Below, piece after piece: positions 9,647-36,991 of a stretch of DNA of 37,422 nt. This stretch comes from an uncultured Bacteroidota bacterium. Lineage in GTDB: Bacteria; Bacteroidota; Bacteroidia; Chitinophagales; LD1. The position numbers and the translations under genes are program-made. The notes under the pieces are model-generated. The model did no database searches and was not told the origin of the DNA. It saw only the letters and a list, made by a program, of their open reading frames with translations. The DNA lies in the NCBI GenBank assembly GCA_903889265.1, contig CAISWS010000431.1, positions 1 through 37,422 on the forward strand. Reading direction: 5' to 3'. The first letter of the stretch is position 1; the number at the start of each line of letters is the position of its first letter.

Positions 9647-9862
9647 TTAAAAAAATGAGCCCATTTGTTTTATAATAGCCCCTCCTTTTGTAATTACAAC
9701 CATGCCCGCCACCATAATGGCAAAGACAAAAATGTAAATACCTGAACGGAATAGCTTTAATGCCGTTTCTTCTGATTTAGGGTATAGCCACCAACCAGCA
9801 AGCGCTAAAGGGAAAAAGCAAAATGTAGCCACCACCGCTAAGCGTTTTGTTTCGGAGTTCAT
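9647..9862 (-). CDS. Small membrane protein of unknown function
   Basis: MNSETKRLAVVATFCFFPLALAGWWLY... two predicted TM helices; start overlaps the stop of the upstream gene (ATGA). Confidence 0.55.
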   Translation of the reverse strand: MNSETKRLAVVATFCFFPLALAGWWLYPKSEETALKLFRSGIYIFVFAIMVAGMVVITKGGAIIKQMGSFF

Positions 9863-11565
9863 GGGTTTTGTTTTACGCTGTATAAATAAATTTTCCACCA
9901 GCTTTGAGGGTCGGTAAAAACTTTTTCGAATTGCAGGCCCTGTGCATCATGATTACGGATGTCTGCGGCGGAGATAAGATATCTGCCTCCCATTTCTGAA
10001 AAGGCCTTTGCGTTAAAATCAAGATGATCAACGTGCTGGTTTGAAAACTTATAACAGTTAAATGCCTGGTGTTTTATACCCAGCTCTGAGCTGAAAATAT
10101 AGCAGCGGTTGCCCCAACCATCGTAGTATTGGGCTATGTCTTCGCTCTTTGCAATTTCGCCCGCAAATATGTTCCGGAATTTTTCTTTATAGCGTAAATC
10201 GTATACCGACATCAGGCCATCAAGTGTATAAAATCCATTAAACTGCGCAACACTTGGGCTTATGCCCAGACTGGCAACGTAATAACTGTTAGGTGATTGG
10301 CCAATATACTTTTTGATATCGTCAAACTGCCTGTTGGCAACATAATTTTCGAAGCCGGGAAATTTCTGGTGGCTAAAGAGCGAACGATAGTTCTGGAAAA
10401 CTTCATCATTACCAGCCAACGACTGAAATACCTGTAACACAAGCAGTGGCAATACCATTGGTTTTAACACTGTTGAGTTACTCATTTTAACCAGCCCCAA
10501 AGCAAAAACCAGAAACCACAAAAAGGGAAGTAGTATACTAAAGCGGTTAAAACGGAAACTTTTCATCAGCGCCAGTTTGCCACTTAACCAGTACTCCGGA
10601 TAAATATAAAAGCCCTGAAAAAGGCATATTAGAATAATTGCCGAAAATACAGCAATCATCAGTTTGTCTGACTTTTTGATAGTAAGCACAACAGGCATTA
10701 AAGCAACTGAAGTAATAAATATGGCAATGTGATAATGGGTAGTAAAAAACATGAGGAACGAATCGCCGAGCGCTTTGGTCAAATTGGGCGTCTCAAACAT
10801 GTAAAGATTATATGCCAACCGGTGCGATACAAAACCGCTTTTCAGGAACATACCGGCCAGCATTTGAAAATTTACAAACGCAAATGCCACTACCAGCAGC
10901 ACCATACCTGCAACATAATGTTTGCCGAGTTTTGATTGGGTGAAAAAATATATCCCGACCAACATTAGTAATACGGCAAAAGGAATTGCCAGCCATACTA
11001 CACTGGCATAAAAGGGAAAGAAGGCGATGATTAAATAGCTTACCTTTAAACGCTTACTACGGTTAAGATTAAGAAATGCCCATAAAAGCAAAGGCTGCCC
11101 CATTACAGAAATGCCAAACGGCGTAAAGACAGATAATACACTAAAGGCCAATGCGCATAACCAAACTATATACCGGTCTCCGGCATCCTTAACAAAGTAT
11201 GTAACAAGCAACAACGCCATGCTAAAAAAGCCAGTGGCGTGTATAATCAGGCTACTTACAATGTATGCATTGAAGGCCCCCAGGTTTTGCACCAGAAACA
11301 TATTTATGGATAATCCGGTGGGATAGGCGCTGCGTGGCAGGCCCTGCATTACCTGCGGAACGATAGTGCCAGGGCTAAGAATAAAGGCCAGGTGGCTATC
11401 GGCCAATAATTGCAGCCATATCCATTCGCCTTCAAGCGTATCATGGAGACGAATGTATGAGTTATGCCCTAATAAAATGATGGGTACCACATAGGCTAAA
11501 ACTACGAGTATTATTACGCTTTTTGAAAGCAATAGATGCCTTTCATTTTGGTCCGTCTGTAACAT
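9859..11565 (-). CDS. Large polytopic membrane protein, GT-C-like / DUF6044-like
   Basis: 568 aa, many TM segments; LLGHNSYIRLHDTLEGEWIWLQLL early-loop acidic motif, large soluble C-terminal region. Confidence 0.5.
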   Translation of the reverse strand: MLQTDQNERHLLLSKSVIILVVLAYVVPIILLGHNSYIRLHDTLEGEWIWLQLLADSHLAFILSPGTIVPQVMQGLPRSAYPTGLSINMFLVQNLGAFNAYIVSSLIIHATGFFSMALLLVTYFVKDAGDRYIVWLCALAFSVLSVFTPFGISVMGQPLLLWAFLNLNRSKRLKVSYLIIAFFPFYASVVWLAIPFAVLLMLVGIYFFTQSKLGKHYVAGMVLLVVAFAFVNFQMLAGMFLKSGFVSHRLAYNLYMFETPNLTKALGDSFLMFFTTHYHIAIFITSVALMPVVLTIKKSDKLMIAVFSAIILICLFQGFYIYPEYWLSGKLALMKSFRFNRFSILLPFLWFLVFALGLVKMSNSTVLKPMVLPLLVLQVFQSLAGNDEVFQNYRSLFSHQKFPGFENYVANRQFDDIKKYIGQSPNSYYVASLGISPSVAQFNGFYTLDGLMSVYDLRYKEKFRNIFAGEIAKSEDIAQYYDGWGNRCYIFSSELGIKHQAFNCYKFSNQHVDHLDFNAKAFSEMGGRYLISAADIRNHDAQGLQFEKVFTDPQSWWKIYLYSVKQNP

Positions 11566-12740: not shown

Positions 12741-13916
12741 TTATTTAATTGGCCCCAACCTAACTGTATCAGGCCATTGTTTTAGTTGTTGAATGATGGC
12801 TTTGGTGGTGGCTGTATCTTTTTTGATATACCAGTTAATTGGTTGCTGGGTGGTGGTTTTATCTTCGGAGTAGTGGAAAAATACTACTGATTTAACCAAA
12901 GGATAGTTTACCGGCATGGCAGCCAGTGCATCGCTGAACCACTTGCTACGGTTTCCACCTACATCCAGGCAGCCAAACTCGGTTATCATAATCGGTTTTT
13001 TGAAACCAGTCATTTCCTTATAGTGATTGCCAAATATTTCCTGAAAACTCCACCATTTACTCCAATTAGCCACGGTGCCATAGTTAAGCGTTCCAATTCC
13101 AACATAATCTACATAATCGCTGCCGGGGTAGAAGGCATCAAAAAAACCGTAGGCAGGGTGCGGACTCCAAACCCAGATTACATTGGTAGCACCGGCCTTT
13201 ACAAACACATTATGTATGTGCCTCCAGGCAGCAATAAAATCTTTGGCAGAGTTATTTTGCGGCCCCCATGGATAACGGTAAGGGTCGTTCATTTCGTGTC
13301 CTACGCGTAAGAATATGGGGGTGCCCGATTCTTTTGCTGCAGTAGCCCATTCTTTGATGTAAGGGTCGTATAAACCTTTGGCTATATCGGCAAGGCCACC
13401 TTTATCACGTTCTTCAGCCTTGCGCAGGCCAGGATATTTTTCTGAATCGAAAGCACTTAGCCAGGGCTCCCAAGTGATAACCGGAACAGAGCCTAAGGCG
13501 ATAATGGCATCCACCTGCTGTTGGGGAAATTGCTGTTCAGCATTTGTTCCCCAGGCAGTATAGATGTGAATCAGAGGAAAACGTGTATGTAATGAATCTT
13601 CGAGCTCTATAACACTTTTAAAGGATTCACTTATTTGGTTATCATAGGCTCCTAACATAATGGAGTTAGGTTTTTTTAGCCGGGAGGGGTCAGTAATATA
13701 GGGACTGAACCATGTTAGGTCGTCCGCCCTTTTATGCTGCCGCTGCTTGATGATAACGTTGTTTTCTACCTGCTGCACAGCATTACCTGCCCCGGTAAAG
13801 AAATTCTCCAGTGGGCCACGCGATTTATTTCCTGCAAAGGATAAAGCCAATACAATAATTACACCTGTTAGCACAGCGGCCAGGGTAGAGAATACCCTAA
13901 ATGTTTTTGCCTTCAT
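12741..13916 (-). CDS. Membrane-anchored glycoside hydrolase, GH26 beta-mannanase-like
   Basis: N-terminal TM anchor; catalytic-type motifs FLRVGHEMNDPYRYPWG (acid/base E) and IMITEFGCLD (nucleophile E), NVIWVWSPH. Confidence 0.8.
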   Translation of the reverse strand: MKAKTFRVFSTLAAVLTGVIIVLALSFAGNKSRGPLENFFTGAGNAVQQVENNVIIKQRQHKRADDLTWFSPYITDPSRLKKPNSIMLGAYDNQISESFKSVIELEDSLHTRFPLIHIYTAWGTNAEQQFPQQQVDAIIALGSVPVITWEPWLSAFDSEKYPGLRKAEERDKGGLADIAKGLYDPYIKEWATAAKESGTPIFLRVGHEMNDPYRYPWGPQNNSAKDFIAAWRHIHNVFVKAGATNVIWVWSPHPAYGFFDAFYPGSDYVDYVGIGTLNYGTVANWSKWWSFQEIFGNHYKEMTGFKKPIMITEFGCLDVGGNRSKWFSDALAAMPVNYPLVKSVVFFHYSEDKTTTQQPINWYIKKDTATTKAIIQQLKQWPDTVRLGPIK

Positions 13917-15513
13917 CTTTACTGATTTTAATTTTTTCTAAATCAACACTATCCCAGGGGTCTTCCGCTTTTAAATAGTTTGCTTCCAATGCGGCCAATA
14001 CACCGCCAACACTCATAATAAAGGCAATAAAAGCAAAGCCTACCATAGCCCATGTTTTTTCGGCTGATAGTACAAGGTCGGCTTCATCAGCGTAGTACCG
14101 CCGGTAAATAAAAACAGAGGCTACTACAATCAGGAAAAGTATTATCTGCGCAACCAATGGCCGGGCAAAAGGGGTAAAATAACCGCGCACTGCCTTTTTA
14201 GCTGTTGGGATATAGGGTATATCTGCATTCACAACCGCCAATAAAAAGCCAAGGAAGAATACGGGCCAGCAGGCATATTTTAATACCATGCCCCGCCAAT
14301 GGACACCACGTTCGGTTTCGGGGTGGCACATCCATTTTTGCATGTAGAGGTAAATTAAAACACCCATGAGCGCTACGAATGAGCCTCGGATTAAAAAATC
14401 AACGAACGACATTTTAGCAGGTAAAACACCGGTAAAGAAAAACAGAAACGGAATGAGTGTAAAGAAAAACGAAGTTGCACCTACCAGGTAATACGTGCCA
14501 ATAGACAGATACGACAGCCTCTGCCAGCCAGTAAGTTTCCAAAAAAGTTTTGGAATTTCCTCGAAGGTTACTTCAAATACCCCCCGGCTCCATTTTAACT
14601 GCTGTTTGCAAAAAGAGCCAAAGTCCTCCGGCACTAATCCCCGGCTGACTACTACCGGATTGTAAACTGATTTCCAACCGGCGGCGTGTATGCGTATGGA
14701 TGTAACCAGGTCTTCGGCCAAACCGATACCATGGCCACCGATGCTTTCAAGCGCCTTTCTTCTGAAAGTACAATTGGCGCCGATGGCAACACTGCAGCCG
14801 TAGCCGCTTAAACTCATTTGTGTGGGGCCATAAAATGTGTAAGTCTGCTCTGCCGCGCCATGGGCTGTAAACGAGCGGTACTGATTGTAGTATGCCTGTG
14901 ACACCTGTACAAACCCCATTTTTTCATCTCGGAAAAAGCCGAGCGTATTATCAAGAAAATTGGGGAAAGGAATATGGTCGGGATCGAGCACCAGGATAAA
15001 ATCCTCATGTGTTAGCTTTAGTGCGCCATTTATTTTTCCGGCTTTGGCACCGGGCAGGCCTACTAATTCTAACCACACGGCGCCATTGCGTTCTGCACAT
15101 TCTCTGAATTCCGGTTTACGGGTATCATCCAGTAAATAAGTGGTGTGCGGGTAGGTGATTTCTCTACACGCCGCCAAGGTTTTTTCAAACATTTCCACTG
15201 GTTCTCCGGGCGAGCTGGTGGTGAATATGGCTACACTCAATCCTTTCTCGGGTTCCACCGGTTCAGGTTTGCTGATACCCAGGTAGTTTATCCATATTAA
15301 AATAAGGCGGCCAATGCCATACCAGAATATCAGGCTTAGCAAAATGAAAAACCAGATATTGGCAATGTGCTCCTGCCTGAACCACCAGTCAGCAAACTGC
15401 AAAACGCTGAATATGCCTGCGGCAACCAGCACAAGCAGAAAGAACCTATCCAGGTTTTTTACACCGGCAGACTGGCGAAACTCCCAAAGATTTTTACTGC
15501 CCTTTTTTATCAT
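13897..15513 (-). CDS. Processive family 2 glycosyltransferase (cellulose synthase-like)
   Basis: YLLDDTRKPEF, LDPDHIPFPNFL (DxD), GLAEDLVTSIRIHAAGW, FCKQQLKWSRG (Q-x-x-K/R-W), N- and C-terminal TM bundles; 20-nt overlaps with both neighbours. Confidence 0.88.
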   Translation of the reverse strand: MIKKGSKNLWEFRQSAGVKNLDRFFLLVLVAAGIFSVLQFADWWFRQEHIANIWFFILLSLIFWYGIGRLILIWINYLGISKPEPVEPEKGLSVAIFTTSSPGEPVEMFEKTLAACREITYPHTTYLLDDTRKPEFRECAERNGAVWLELVGLPGAKAGKINGALKLTHEDFILVLDPDHIPFPNFLDNTLGFFRDEKMGFVQVSQAYYNQYRSFTAHGAAEQTYTFYGPTQMSLSGYGCSVAIGANCTFRRKALESIGGHGIGLAEDLVTSIRIHAAGWKSVYNPVVVSRGLVPEDFGSFCKQQLKWSRGVFEVTFEEIPKLFWKLTGWQRLSYLSIGTYYLVGATSFFFTLIPFLFFFTGVLPAKMSFVDFLIRGSFVALMGVLIYLYMQKWMCHPETERGVHWRGMVLKYACWPVFFLGFLLAVVNADIPYIPTAKKAVRGYFTPFARPLVAQIILFLIVVASVFIYRRYYADEADLVLSAEKTWAMVGFAFIAFIMSVGGVLAALEANYLKAEDPWDSVDLEKIKISKDEGKNI

Positions 15514-17482
15514 TCCAGAAGTTTATTTTTAATCCTACGCCTGCGCTGTTGCTGGTATAGAAATAGGTTTTACGATAGGCGTAATCTGCTTTAAGGCTTA
15601 TTTTTTTGGTAATGCGCAACAGCACGTATGCGCTGAACTCCATCGGGTAAAATTTTTCAGTGGCGTAATTTTTGGCAATAACGGTGGCACCGGTTTGGTT
15701 TGTATCCAGGTAAAAATAAGGCGTACTGGCAGTGGCGTAAAAGCCCACATTGGCATTAAATCCGATATCGAAATTCTTAGTAGGATGAGCTATTATAGAA
15801 GCAAGGGCTGCATGGGAGCTTATATTATCGGGTGTAAAATAAGGGCTGTATATTCCGGTTATGGGAGCGCTTGCATCGTAAGGGTTAAGAATTTCGGCTA
15901 ATGTCTTTTCGGGCACAAATTTGTTTTGCTTAGCTGTGCTGTAGCTATAGGCATAGCCGATACGAAATTCTAATACCGAAACTTTAAGCGGCGGGCTAAA
16001 TATCCAGCCGCCTCCGCCTATTACGTAGTTTTTATTTACAAAACCATTGTATTCAAAACCAATGTGTCCGTTGAAACTATTCTGGTCGTTCCATTCGGCA
16101 TAGGCTGATGCCCGCGTTACCATGATAACGGTATCCAGACTGCTGATGGTATAGTAATATGGCTTACGCTCTGCCTGTGCTTGTAAAACCAGATGCTTGA
16201 AGAACGTTTTTTTCAATTCCAGATTAGCAGTCCAGGATATTTTGTTTCCATAAGGTTGCTTTACACCACCGGCATCAAAAGCCAGTTGGAAACCGGATTT
16301 GCGGAATGAGGAAACGTCTCCAAGCTGAAGCCACTGTGCATTTTGCAAAAGCCCACTGCGGATAAACAGAGGTGTTTGCAGGTTAAGTTTTAGCGTAGCT
16401 TCAGGATGCAGATAAACGTCTACCTCCGCTGCCGGAGTAATCGTTTGTAGTGGCTGGCTATCTATGGTATAGGCCCCCTTAATTTTTAAAGATGATGCTT
16501 TTGCAAGGTGCAGTTGGTCAAGTAGTACCAGTGCATCTGCGTTACCCGGCTCCTGAGCTAATATCAATCGAATATTTTTTTCCACCAGTTCAAAATTGCC
16601 TTGCGCCAGATAAACTTTTGCCAGGCCAAGTTCTGCTTTGATATTGGTTGGGTCGTAATTTTTGTAGTCGTTTAAAAGCGGAAGGGCCTTATTATAATCA
16701 GCCAGATTAACCAGCGTGTTCGCATAATCCAGCTTTAAATAATAATTACTGGTTTGGGCTAAGGCTGCCTTTTTATAAAGCTGTTTAGACCGTTTTAAAT
16801 GCTTGCTGAGATAGGATACCTGGGCAAATAACCAGGTGGTGTTGAAATCGGCATCATGGCTTTTATAGTAAAGTTTTAGCAGCTTATATGAATCGCGGTA
16901 TTTTCCTTTGCCCTTTAGTTGCTTTACTTTATTCAATGTATCGGCTGAAGCAGGCTTGTAAGTATTGTATAGCCTTTCATTGACCTTACGGTGTTTATCC
17001 ATCCAAAACATGCTGGCTATTGCTGCTTTGAAACCTGTGCTGGTTGAATCGAAGGCGTGGTAAGAAGCCAGAACCGGCTTTGCCTTTTTGGGTTCACCAA
17101 TAGAAATTAAGAAATTGGCGTAGTCGAGTTGAAGATAATAATTGGTTGGATGCGCAGTAACGGCCTGTTTATAAAGGTTTTTGGCTTCCTTGAAATTCTG
17201 AAGCCAGTATTCCGTTTGGGCATATACCCAGGTGGAGTTGAGATCGGTTGGATGGGCGCTGTGGTAGATTTTAAGTAAAGCGGCCGCTTTATTTAGTTTG
17301 CCATCGCTTTTAAACTTTTTCGCCATATCTAACGTATCGGAGGACAGCTGCGCTGAGGCCTTATTAACCATTAGCATAGCGTAAAGCAATATAAGACCAA
17401 GCTTTGAGCCCTTTTTGCCCAATGAGGTAAGCCGGAAAAAATAAGTAGCCGTCCAGGTGGCAGCGCCGGTTATAGATTGCAT
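15494..17482 (-). CDS. Tetratricopeptide-repeat protein with C-terminal outer-membrane beta-barrel-like region (YaiO-like)
   Basis: Duplicated TPR units (STWVYAQTEYWLQNFKEAKNLYKQAVTAHPTNYYLQLDYANFL and TTWLFAQVSYLSKHLKRSKQLYKKAALAQTSNYYLKLDYANTL), then alternating amphipathic beta strands ending KISLKADYAYRKTYFYTSNSAGVGLKINFW. Confidence 0.75.
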   Translation of the reverse strand: MQSITGAATWTATYFFRLTSLGKKGSKLGLILLYAMLMVNKASAQLSSDTLDMAKKFKSDGKLNKAAALLKIYHSAHPTDLNSTWVYAQTEYWLQNFKEAKNLYKQAVTAHPTNYYLQLDYANFLISIGEPKKAKPVLASYHAFDSTSTGFKAAIASMFWMDKHRKVNERLYNTYKPASADTLNKVKQLKGKGKYRDSYKLLKLYYKSHDADFNTTWLFAQVSYLSKHLKRSKQLYKKAALAQTSNYYLKLDYANTLVNLADYNKALPLLNDYKNYDPTNIKAELGLAKVYLAQGNFELVEKNIRLILAQEPGNADALVLLDQLHLAKASSLKIKGAYTIDSQPLQTITPAAEVDVYLHPEATLKLNLQTPLFIRSGLLQNAQWLQLGDVSSFRKSGFQLAFDAGGVKQPYGNKISWTANLELKKTFFKHLVLQAQAERKPYYYTISSLDTVIMVTRASAYAEWNDQNSFNGHIGFEYNGFVNKNYVIGGGGWIFSPPLKVSVLEFRIGYAYSYSTAKQNKFVPEKTLAEILNPYDASAPITGIYSPYFTPDNISSHAALASIIAHPTKNFDIGFNANVGFYATASTPYFYLDTNQTGATVIAKNYATEKFYPMEFSAYVLLRITKKISLKADYAYRKTYFYTSNSAGVGLKINFWNDKKGQ

Positions 17483-17823
17483 AGCCTTAGCTTGAGTAAA
17501 TAGTAATTAACTCTAATTTTTTAACAGTATTACACGGGGGAGAGTAAACCAAATGATTTAAATGAATAGGTAATCGATTTTGTAAGATGTATTTTAAAGC
17601 ATCGCCTTGGGTAAATAAGATTCAATAATGCTTTCGGGGTTTTCGTTTACAAAAGTTTAAGGTTTGTAATTGGTTTGATGTCAGATAATTGAAAAACCTG
17701 CGCTGGCGGCAGATTTTTTTATTGTGCCGGATAATTTCCTTTGAAATTCCCCTGACGCCGCGCAAATAAGACACTAAGCATTATTTTATGAACTTCGGAT
17801 AATTACTTACCTTCGATTCCGGA

Positions 17824-17902
17824 ACTTTAGGGGTGCCTTAATGAATGGCTGAGATTATACCCTTGGTAACCTGAACAGGGTAATGCCTGCGAAGGGAAAA
17901 GT
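17824..17902 (+). promoter_or_regulatory. TPP riboswitch (THI element)
   Basis: ACTTTAGGGGTGCC...GGCTGAGATTATACCC...AACCTGAACAGGGTAATGCCTGCGAAGGGAAAAGT: diagnostic TPP aptamer core with ACTTT/AAAGT closing stem, directly upstream of thiS. Confidence 0.95.
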
Positions 17903-17971
17903 AGCAAGAGGCCCGTGCCCTCGTTTTTCACCTACCTGAAGTTTTTCCGCTTAACGTTGAATGGATAATTT

Positions 17972-36494: not shown

Positions 36495-36930
36495 GCTGCA
36501 TGCTGTTCTATCGTTCTTCATTTAATGAGGGAAGGAAAGTCCGGACAATACAGAGCACCGTATCCCGATAACTTCGGGACATTTGTTAAGGAATTAACAG
36601 AGCGAGACAGTGCCACAGAAAATAACCGCCAGCCCGGCCCTTAAATCCCCGAAAGGGACTTTAAAGCCGGTAGGGTAAGGGTGAAAAAGTGAGGTAAGAG
36701 CTCACGGTTTCTCAATGGAAGTTGAGATTGGGGCAAACCTTGCGGATTGAAAGCCCACGTATATCTGTCCTAAAGCGCTGCTCGCGCGATGGCCCGGCTT
36801 CGGCAGGGCAAGGCAGAGGGGTTGAGCGTAACAGGTGCCGGGCAACCGGTATCGCAGATAAATGATAGATGTCCTGCAACACCGGTAACGGGTTTGCAGG
36901 AAACAGAATCCGGCTTACAGGCAGGCAGCT
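36495..36930 (+). ncRNA. rnpB: RNase P RNA (bacterial type A-like)
   Basis: GAGGGAAGGAAAGTCCGGACAATACAGAGCACCG, GGTAAGGGTGAAAAAGTGAGGTAAGAGCTCACGG, GGCAAACC, and 3' ACAGAATCCGGCTTACAGGCAGGC; GCTGC/GCAGC ends pair, then a T8 tract. Ends approximate. Confidence 0.93.
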
Positions 36931-36991
36931 TTTTTTTGAAGACACACACAATCCATAAACCCGGCCCCGTGGCCGAAAAACATTTTAGCTT

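Follow-up and report, generated by a model that had tools for sequence, protein, structure and literature searches.

A three-gene operon of Bacteroidota, encoding a TPR-barrel protein, a GT2 synthase and a GH26 hydrolase, as a probable BcsB-less exopolysaccharide machine

Synthase-dependent exopolysaccharides build biofilms, and we found little described on them for Bacteroidota. Among processive enzymes of glycosyltransferase family 2 (GT2), the motifs QxxRW, FxVTxK and QxPH/Q are reported to be fully conserved in BcsA, CrdS and BgsA (PMC6821405). Bacterial GT2s that make mixed-linkage (1,3;1,4)-beta-glucan are also known among the BcsA relatives, namely RiGT2 (PMC10374906) and BgsA; RiGT2 is not linked to a bcsB gene. 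A gene of glycoside hydrolase family 26 (GH26) has been reported in a Wzx/Wzy-type exopolysaccharide cluster of Actinoplanes, and the same paper states that none of that kind with a GH26 had been characterised (PMC13390465). Here, we describe an operon on contig CAISWS010000431.1 of an uncultured Bacteroidota bacterium (37,422 nucleotides, called the window below), which very probably encodes a compact, BcsB-less synthase-dependent exopolysaccharide machine with an inner-membrane GT2, an anchored GH26 and an exporter that joins tetratricopeptide repeats (TPR) to a beta-barrel. Our literature search, with subscription papers largely outside its reach, returned no description of this operon, of GT2-GH26 fusions or of the donor switch discussed below. 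In reading order, the three genes are:

15494..17482, minus strand: gene 1, 662 amino acids, TPR and outer-membrane beta-barrel protein, proposed periplasmic scaffold and export pore (Pfam TPR, predicted model, Foldseek)
13897..15513, minus strand: gene 2, 538 amino acids, BcsA-like processive GT2, predicted inner-membrane protein (Pfam, PDB match, hydrophobic segments)
12741..13916, minus strand: gene 3, 391 amino acids, membrane-anchored GH26 of the lichenase clade (PDB match, predicted model, Foldseek, tree)

All three genes start with ATG. Both junctions (13897-13916 and 15494-15513) overlap by exactly 20 nucleotides, as a preliminary description of this DNA had stated. That description had also hinged on the triplet being conserved across Bacteroidota, which it is. 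A scan of GTDB genomes for the GT2, with FCKQQLKW among the scan patterns, returned 80 loci from other Bacteroidota, including Algoriphagus, Aquiflexum, Hymenobacter, Flavobacterium, Salinimicrobium and Segetibacter. Culturable bearers include an Algoriphagus type strain and Hymenobacter crusticola. A TPR relative is found in 77/80 of these and a GH26 relative likewise in 77/80, with all genes on one strand in every case and the order TPR-GT2-GH26 kept throughout; the loci without a GH26 relative lie at contig ends, as does one locus without a TPR relative. Both junctions are also tight in other triplet loci, where 4-nucleotide overlaps are common, and the close relatives L041 and L042 (L numbers denote loci) share the exact 20-nucleotide overlap at both. 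Of 30 genomes from the window's family, 8 have both GT2 and GH26, 22 have neither, and no genome has one alone. Because order and strand are kept in the 80 loci and GT2 and GH26 co-occur across the family, the grouping is far beyond chance. The triplet is nevertheless sparse: a phylum-wide draw of 395 genomes contained it only in the window's genome and in G194, and a further draw of 395 yielded no new triplet locus. One contig labelled Candidatus Saccharibacteria (L044) carries a Bacteroidota-type triplet close to that of the window and is probably mis-binned.

Gene 2 matches the GT2 families PF13632/PF13641 at about 1e-18, and its best PDB match is BcsA (5ej1, 3.9e-30). Hydrophobic segments flank the GT domain on both sides, and the protein has the features expected of a processive GT2, namely the DD, DxD and ED motifs, the Trp of a QxxRW-type motif and transmembrane segments, with the Arg of QxxRW replaced by Lys. 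The motifs lie as follows:

15124..15129, minus strand: DD dyad, residues 129-130, in the predicted nucleotide-binding pocket (aligns with the DD of BcsA)
14977..14985, minus strand: DxD motif, D177-P-D179 (DPDH in 82/82 triplet-type GT2s)
14710..14718, minus strand: [TAS]ED motif, A266-E-D268, predicted catalytic base (motif alignment)
14590..14604, minus strand: QQLKW, residues 304-308, in place of the canonical QxxRW (motif alignment)
14197..14214, minus strand: gating-loop motif YIPTAK, residues 434-439, in place of FxVTxK (motif alignment)

QQLKW is present in 82 triplet-type GT2s, in 9 GT2s that are fused to GH26 and in L017. Its invariance among the 80 scanned loci is partly built in, since FCKQQLKW served as a scan pattern; the fusion proteins and L017 support it independently because they were found without patterns.

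These fusions come from more distant Bacteroidota, in which GT2s about 40% identical to that of the window lie in open reading frames of 850-1290 amino acids with a C-terminal GH26. Most of the fusion loci inspected have an adjoining protein of 435-472 amino acids, with a weak match to the GH2 TIM barrel in the two copies tested, and no TPR-barrel gene was found near the fusion loci inspected. Loci L168-L173, L176 and L177 encode such GT2-GH26 fusions, mostly with the companion gene beside them; some have a degenerate GH26 and some an extra C-terminal domain. A more distant relative occurs in genomes that we refer to as Chlorobium-like (an inferred name), where a TPR-PgaA barrel, a GT2 and a GH8 are encoded in a row (L178); this order indicates that GH26 occupies the place of the BcsZ-type hydrolase. 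L175 has a TPR-barrel/GT2/hydrolase operon as L178 does, and the GT2 type of this operon is common in one genus of our sample. GT2s of the GH8-linked type (L019, L020) keep QQHRW, FQVTPK and QTPQ; in the GH26-linked GT2s the first two read QQLKW and YxPTxK, and the Pro of QxPQ is missing.

The model of gene 1, built from a 27-sequence alignment, has a mean predicted local distance difference test score (pLDDT) of 87.8 and shows a TPR superhelix with a barrel C-terminal to it. The models of genes 1 and 3 are numbered one below the full proteins, as the first Met is absent from the alignments.

16499..17344, minus strand: TPR superhelix of gene 1, about residues 47-328 (predicted model)
15518..16495, minus strand: beta-barrel of gene 1, about residues 330-655, roughly 16 strands (DSSP of the model; Foldseek to the PgaA and BcsC barrels)

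The best Foldseek matches are BcsC (9b8a, 2e-16), 6tzk, PgaA (4y25, TMt 0.78) and PelB (9h80). The TPR block is duplicated internally (residues 51-180 versus 183-315, 35% identity), which makes the window's gene 1 about 150 residues longer than most homologues.

Gene 3 scores 44.1 bits against the Pfam GH26 profile (threshold 20.2; 2.3e-11) and has a single predicted membrane segment, at its N-terminus; no obvious lipobox was seen among the homologue GH26 N-termini listed.

13821..13907, minus strand: N-terminal membrane anchor of GH26, residues 4-32 (hydropathy)
13293..13295, minus strand: predicted acid/base Glu208 of GH26 (HEMNDPYRYPWG motif; invariant in 20/20)
12978..12980, minus strand: predicted nucleophile Glu313 of GH26 (ITEFG; invariant in 20/20)

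By sequence, its best PDB match is the lichenase CtLic26A of Clostridium thermocellum (2vi0, 8.5e-34, about 30% identity). The top seven Foldseek matches of the model (mean pLDDT 84.3) are chains of the same enzyme (TMt 0.87), with mannanases fitting far worse, and in our tree the protein groups with CtLic26A outside the mannanase branch with a Shimodaira-Hasegawa-like approximate likelihood ratio (SH-aLRT) support of 100. Judged by sequence and model, GH26 belongs to the lichenase clade, and the mannanases are distant. Substrate-site residues were compared with reference sequences from PDB alignments, using the BoMan26B positions given in PMC6556568 (CjMan26A numbering is approximate). The triplet GH26s retain the Arg, the His and the two catalytic Glu in 20/20 cases. 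In 20/20 synthase-linked GH26s, Asp/Glu stands in place of Gly215, Tyr in place of Trp217, Gly/Thr/Pro in place of Asp283 and Leu in place of Tyr285. The window's own GH26 has E, D, Y, G and L at mannanase His143, Gly215, Trp217, Asp283 and Tyr285. The column of the mannanase -1 His, which holds Glu in triplet GH26s as in CtLic26A, is less secure because it is misaligned in a second alignment; the other four positions agree between both alignments, and the TWEPW motif is plain in triplet GH26 and CtLic26A alike. All mannanase references and CtLic26A keep the four residues that the window's GH26 lacks, as do the free, secreted lichenase-clade GH26s L188-L191. By this comparison, the synthase-partner GH26 fits neither the usual mannanase pattern nor the usual lichenase one. 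L188-L191 also have C-terminal sorting-type tails and are probable lichenases.

In the preferred reading, the GT2 at the inner membrane would build the polymer from a nucleotide sugar (a UDP-sugar most likely, with UDP-glucose the probable one) and push the growing chain through its own channel into the periplasm. The anchored GH26 would cut, edit or release chains by the exit, in the role of the GH8 enzyme BcsZ of cellulose systems, and the TPR scaffold and beta-barrel would lead the polymer across the outer membrane. In its main lines, this is the division of roles that the preliminary description had assigned (an outer-membrane TPR/barrel component, a cellulose-synthase-like GT2 and a GH26), and the Pfam matches, PDB matches and models support it; the pore-type fold expected of gene 1 is what the model predicts, resembling BcsC, PgaA and PelB. 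The same description had called the hydrolase membrane-anchored and GH26-like rather than of the GH8/BcsZ type, which agrees with the Pfam match and the N-terminal anchor, and had seen no separate PilZ- or BcsB-like gene. This too holds: Pfam detects no PilZ domain in the GT2, and a profile search of the window's genome, which is 99.5% complete, finds no BcsB (PF03170), although E. coli and B. subtilis, searched as controls, both match this profile. No GGDEF protein was found in the genome either. PilZ is absent from the GT2, PilZ proteins elsewhere in the genome not having been searched for. Since the genome has neither a GGDEF protein nor BcsB and the GT2 has no PilZ, control by cyclic di-GMP is unlikely.

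Several observations weigh against this picture or narrow it. The window's GT2 departs from the beta-glucan synthases at three motifs (QQLKW, YIPTAK and QVSQ in place of QxPH/Q), which leaves a plain beta-glucan product uncertain. Because the GH26 is without four substrate-site residues of CtLic26A, its substrate may be something other than mixed-linkage glucan, and the enzyme might be slow or non-hydrolytic. The fusion GH26 domains of L005, L010 and L016 have lost catalytic residues. Finally, L050 and L056 have no recognisable TPR gene adjoining the GT2, and only 8/30 genomes of the window's family carry the locus.

As for the product, our analysis suggests that it is probably a beta-linked homopolymer of the glucose type, neither cellulose nor mannan. 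That it is instead a polymer of another UDP-sugar, such as UDP-GlcNAc, UDP-Gal or a UDP-uronic acid, with a GH26 of matching new specificity, is somewhat unlikely: the altered GT2 motifs and GH26 substrate site would suit a non-glucose or modified product and the DD pocket fits uridine, but for both enzymes the closest homologues of solved structure are glucan-active and no sugar-nucleotide genes linked to the operon are present in the window. We regard as unlikely the more specific proposal that the polymer is mixed-linkage beta-(1,3;1,4)-glucan and the GH26 its dedicated lichenase. In its favour, no solved structure is closer in sequence or fold than CtLic26A, no characterised enzyme is closer in the tree, and bacterial mixed-linkage synthases exist, as noted above; however, the four residues kept by free lichenase-clade GH26s are lost in all the synthase-linked ones tested, and the GT2 lacks the QxxRW, FxVTxK and PilZ domain of RiGT2 (PMC10374906).

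The preliminary description had suggested a non-cellulose polymer that perhaps contains mannose, with a GH26 of the mannanase clan; the mannose idea is not supported. Most GH26 enzymes are beta-mannanases (PMC6556568), and GDP-mannose as the donor is still compatible with the data. Against these stand the placement outside the mannanase branch, the far worse Foldseek fit to mannanases and the replacement of the four mannanase residues, with the -1 His aligned to Glu in one of two alignments. On tree placement, fold match and substrate-site residues we rejected mannan, and consider a mannose-containing polymer very improbable. A glycan-degradation locus with a catabolic GH26 and an incidental GT2 is hardly credible. 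GH26 genes do occur in utilisation loci of Bacteroidota (PMC6556568, PMC9860051; for example, L155), but this reading is opposed by the absence of SusC/SusD or other catabolic genes from the operon, the fusion of related GT2s to GH26 in other lineages, the membrane anchor and the strict co-occurrence of GH26 with GT2.

Within the preferred synthase-export reading, the choice of donor can be approached through a subset of relatives. In 11/80 loci (L065, L066, L070, L071, L099, L103, L104, L106, L111, L118 and L120), a three-gene CDP-6-deoxyhexose cassette either separates GT2 from GH26 or flanks the operon. It encodes a glucose-1-phosphate cytidylyltransferase, a CDP-glucose 4,6-dehydratase and a short-chain dehydrogenase/reductase that resembles 4-epimerases and 4-ketoreductases; in L099, from Flavobacterium aciduliphilum, the first two score over their curated cut-offs. 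The preliminary description had proposed a minimal export machine, which stands for the window's genome and fails as a general statement, given these 11 relatives. The DD dyad is altered in 11/11 cassette loci (LLDS, LLDN, LLTD, LLSD or FLDS) and is LLDD in 69/69 scorable cassette-free loci; in RiGT2, the first Asp of this dyad is assigned to the uridine ring (PMC10374906). In the GT2 tree, the cassette loci lie together in one section. Nested inside are L108 and L109, which have no cassette near the operon and count among the LLDD loci. Both are in the cassette-free state at positions 101, 130 and 132, have not reverted at the clade markers 119, 139, 262 and 456, and have apparently lost the cassette. 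The contig of L117 (1716-3242) breaks off behind the GT2; its LLDS leads us to expect a cassette in the part that is cut off.

This sequence association suggests a donor switch, in which the GT2 itself uses the CDP-sugar of the cassette and its nucleotide pocket follows the donor; GT2s of the window's type would then use another, presumably a UDP-sugar. Each trait needs 2 changes on the tree, and the 2 pairs available for a sign test are too few for significance. With one gain and one loss, the donor switch is a strong lead and not proof. A CDP-sugar donor for the window was rejected, as its pocket is DD and no cytidylyltransferase over the TIGR02623 cut-off is found in its genome or in the seven others of the family that carry the triplet. 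The change of GH26 Tyr279 to Phe was considered as a second cassette-tracking residue, being Phe in 8/10 cassette loci, and was also rejected: it follows descent, because the cassette-bearing L118 and L120 keep Tyr like their sisters L108/L109. More tentatively, the operon could represent an undescribed class of machine in Bacteroidota, in which GH26 works with, and elsewhere is fused to, a BcsB-less GT2. Its ancestral donor would be a UDP-sugar, one clade would have taken up the CDP-6-deoxyhexose pathway and re-tooled the pocket to make a 6-deoxyhexose polymer, and degenerate fused GH26 may guide the chain in place of BcsB.

The operon's neighbours are not obvious polysaccharide genes, comprising plus-strand thiamine genes behind a thiamine pyrophosphate (TPP) riboswitch and minus-strand DUF6010 and DUF6044 proteins. 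Other features of the window are:

17819-17914, plus strand: TPP riboswitch, preceding the thiamine genes and divergent from the operon
9859-11565, minus strand: DUF6044 membrane protein (strong full-length match)
36495-36933, plus strand: RNase P RNA, class A, elsewhere in the window

A three-gene machine without BcsB or cyclic di-GMP control would be simple enough for transfer to another host. The GH26 signature tells synthase partners from unlinked lichenase-like enzymes and would correct mannanase annotations. If the link between cassette and pocket is true, close relatives offer a natural comparison showing which residues underlie donor choice in processive GT2s.

When compared to known systems, the operon shares with Bcs a BcsA-related processive GT2, a BcsC-like TPR-barrel fold and a directly linked glycoside hydrolase gene. 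It differs in lacking BcsB, PilZ and GGDEF, in having QQLKW/YxPTxK for QxxRW/FxVTxK and GH26 for GH8, and in its GT2 score of 144.8 bits, below the curated CelA cut-off of 699.1 bits. With Pga and Pel (PgaA, PelB), it shares a TPR superhelix linked to a barrel that resembles PgaA in size and fold, whereas its GT2 reaches 44.9 bits where the PgaC cut-off is 422 bits, no deacetylase gene is present and the hydrolase is of another family. CtLic26A has both catalytic Glu and TWEPW in common with the window's GH26, which is distinguished by its four changed substrate-site residues, its membrane anchor and its tie to a synthase. RiGT2 and BgsA are likewise BcsA-related, but RiGT2 has QRDRW, FNVTLK and PilZ, and the accessible text on the two enzymes mentions neither a GH26 nor a TPR-barrel partner. 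The Chlorobium-like operon (L175, L178) follows the same three-gene logic and gene order, with a GH8 hydrolase in the tested L178 and the more canonical motifs given above in its related GT2s. The kind of machine is known; what appears to be new is the combination of GH26 with a motif-altered, BcsB-less GT2 and a TPR barrel, together with the apparent donor switch.

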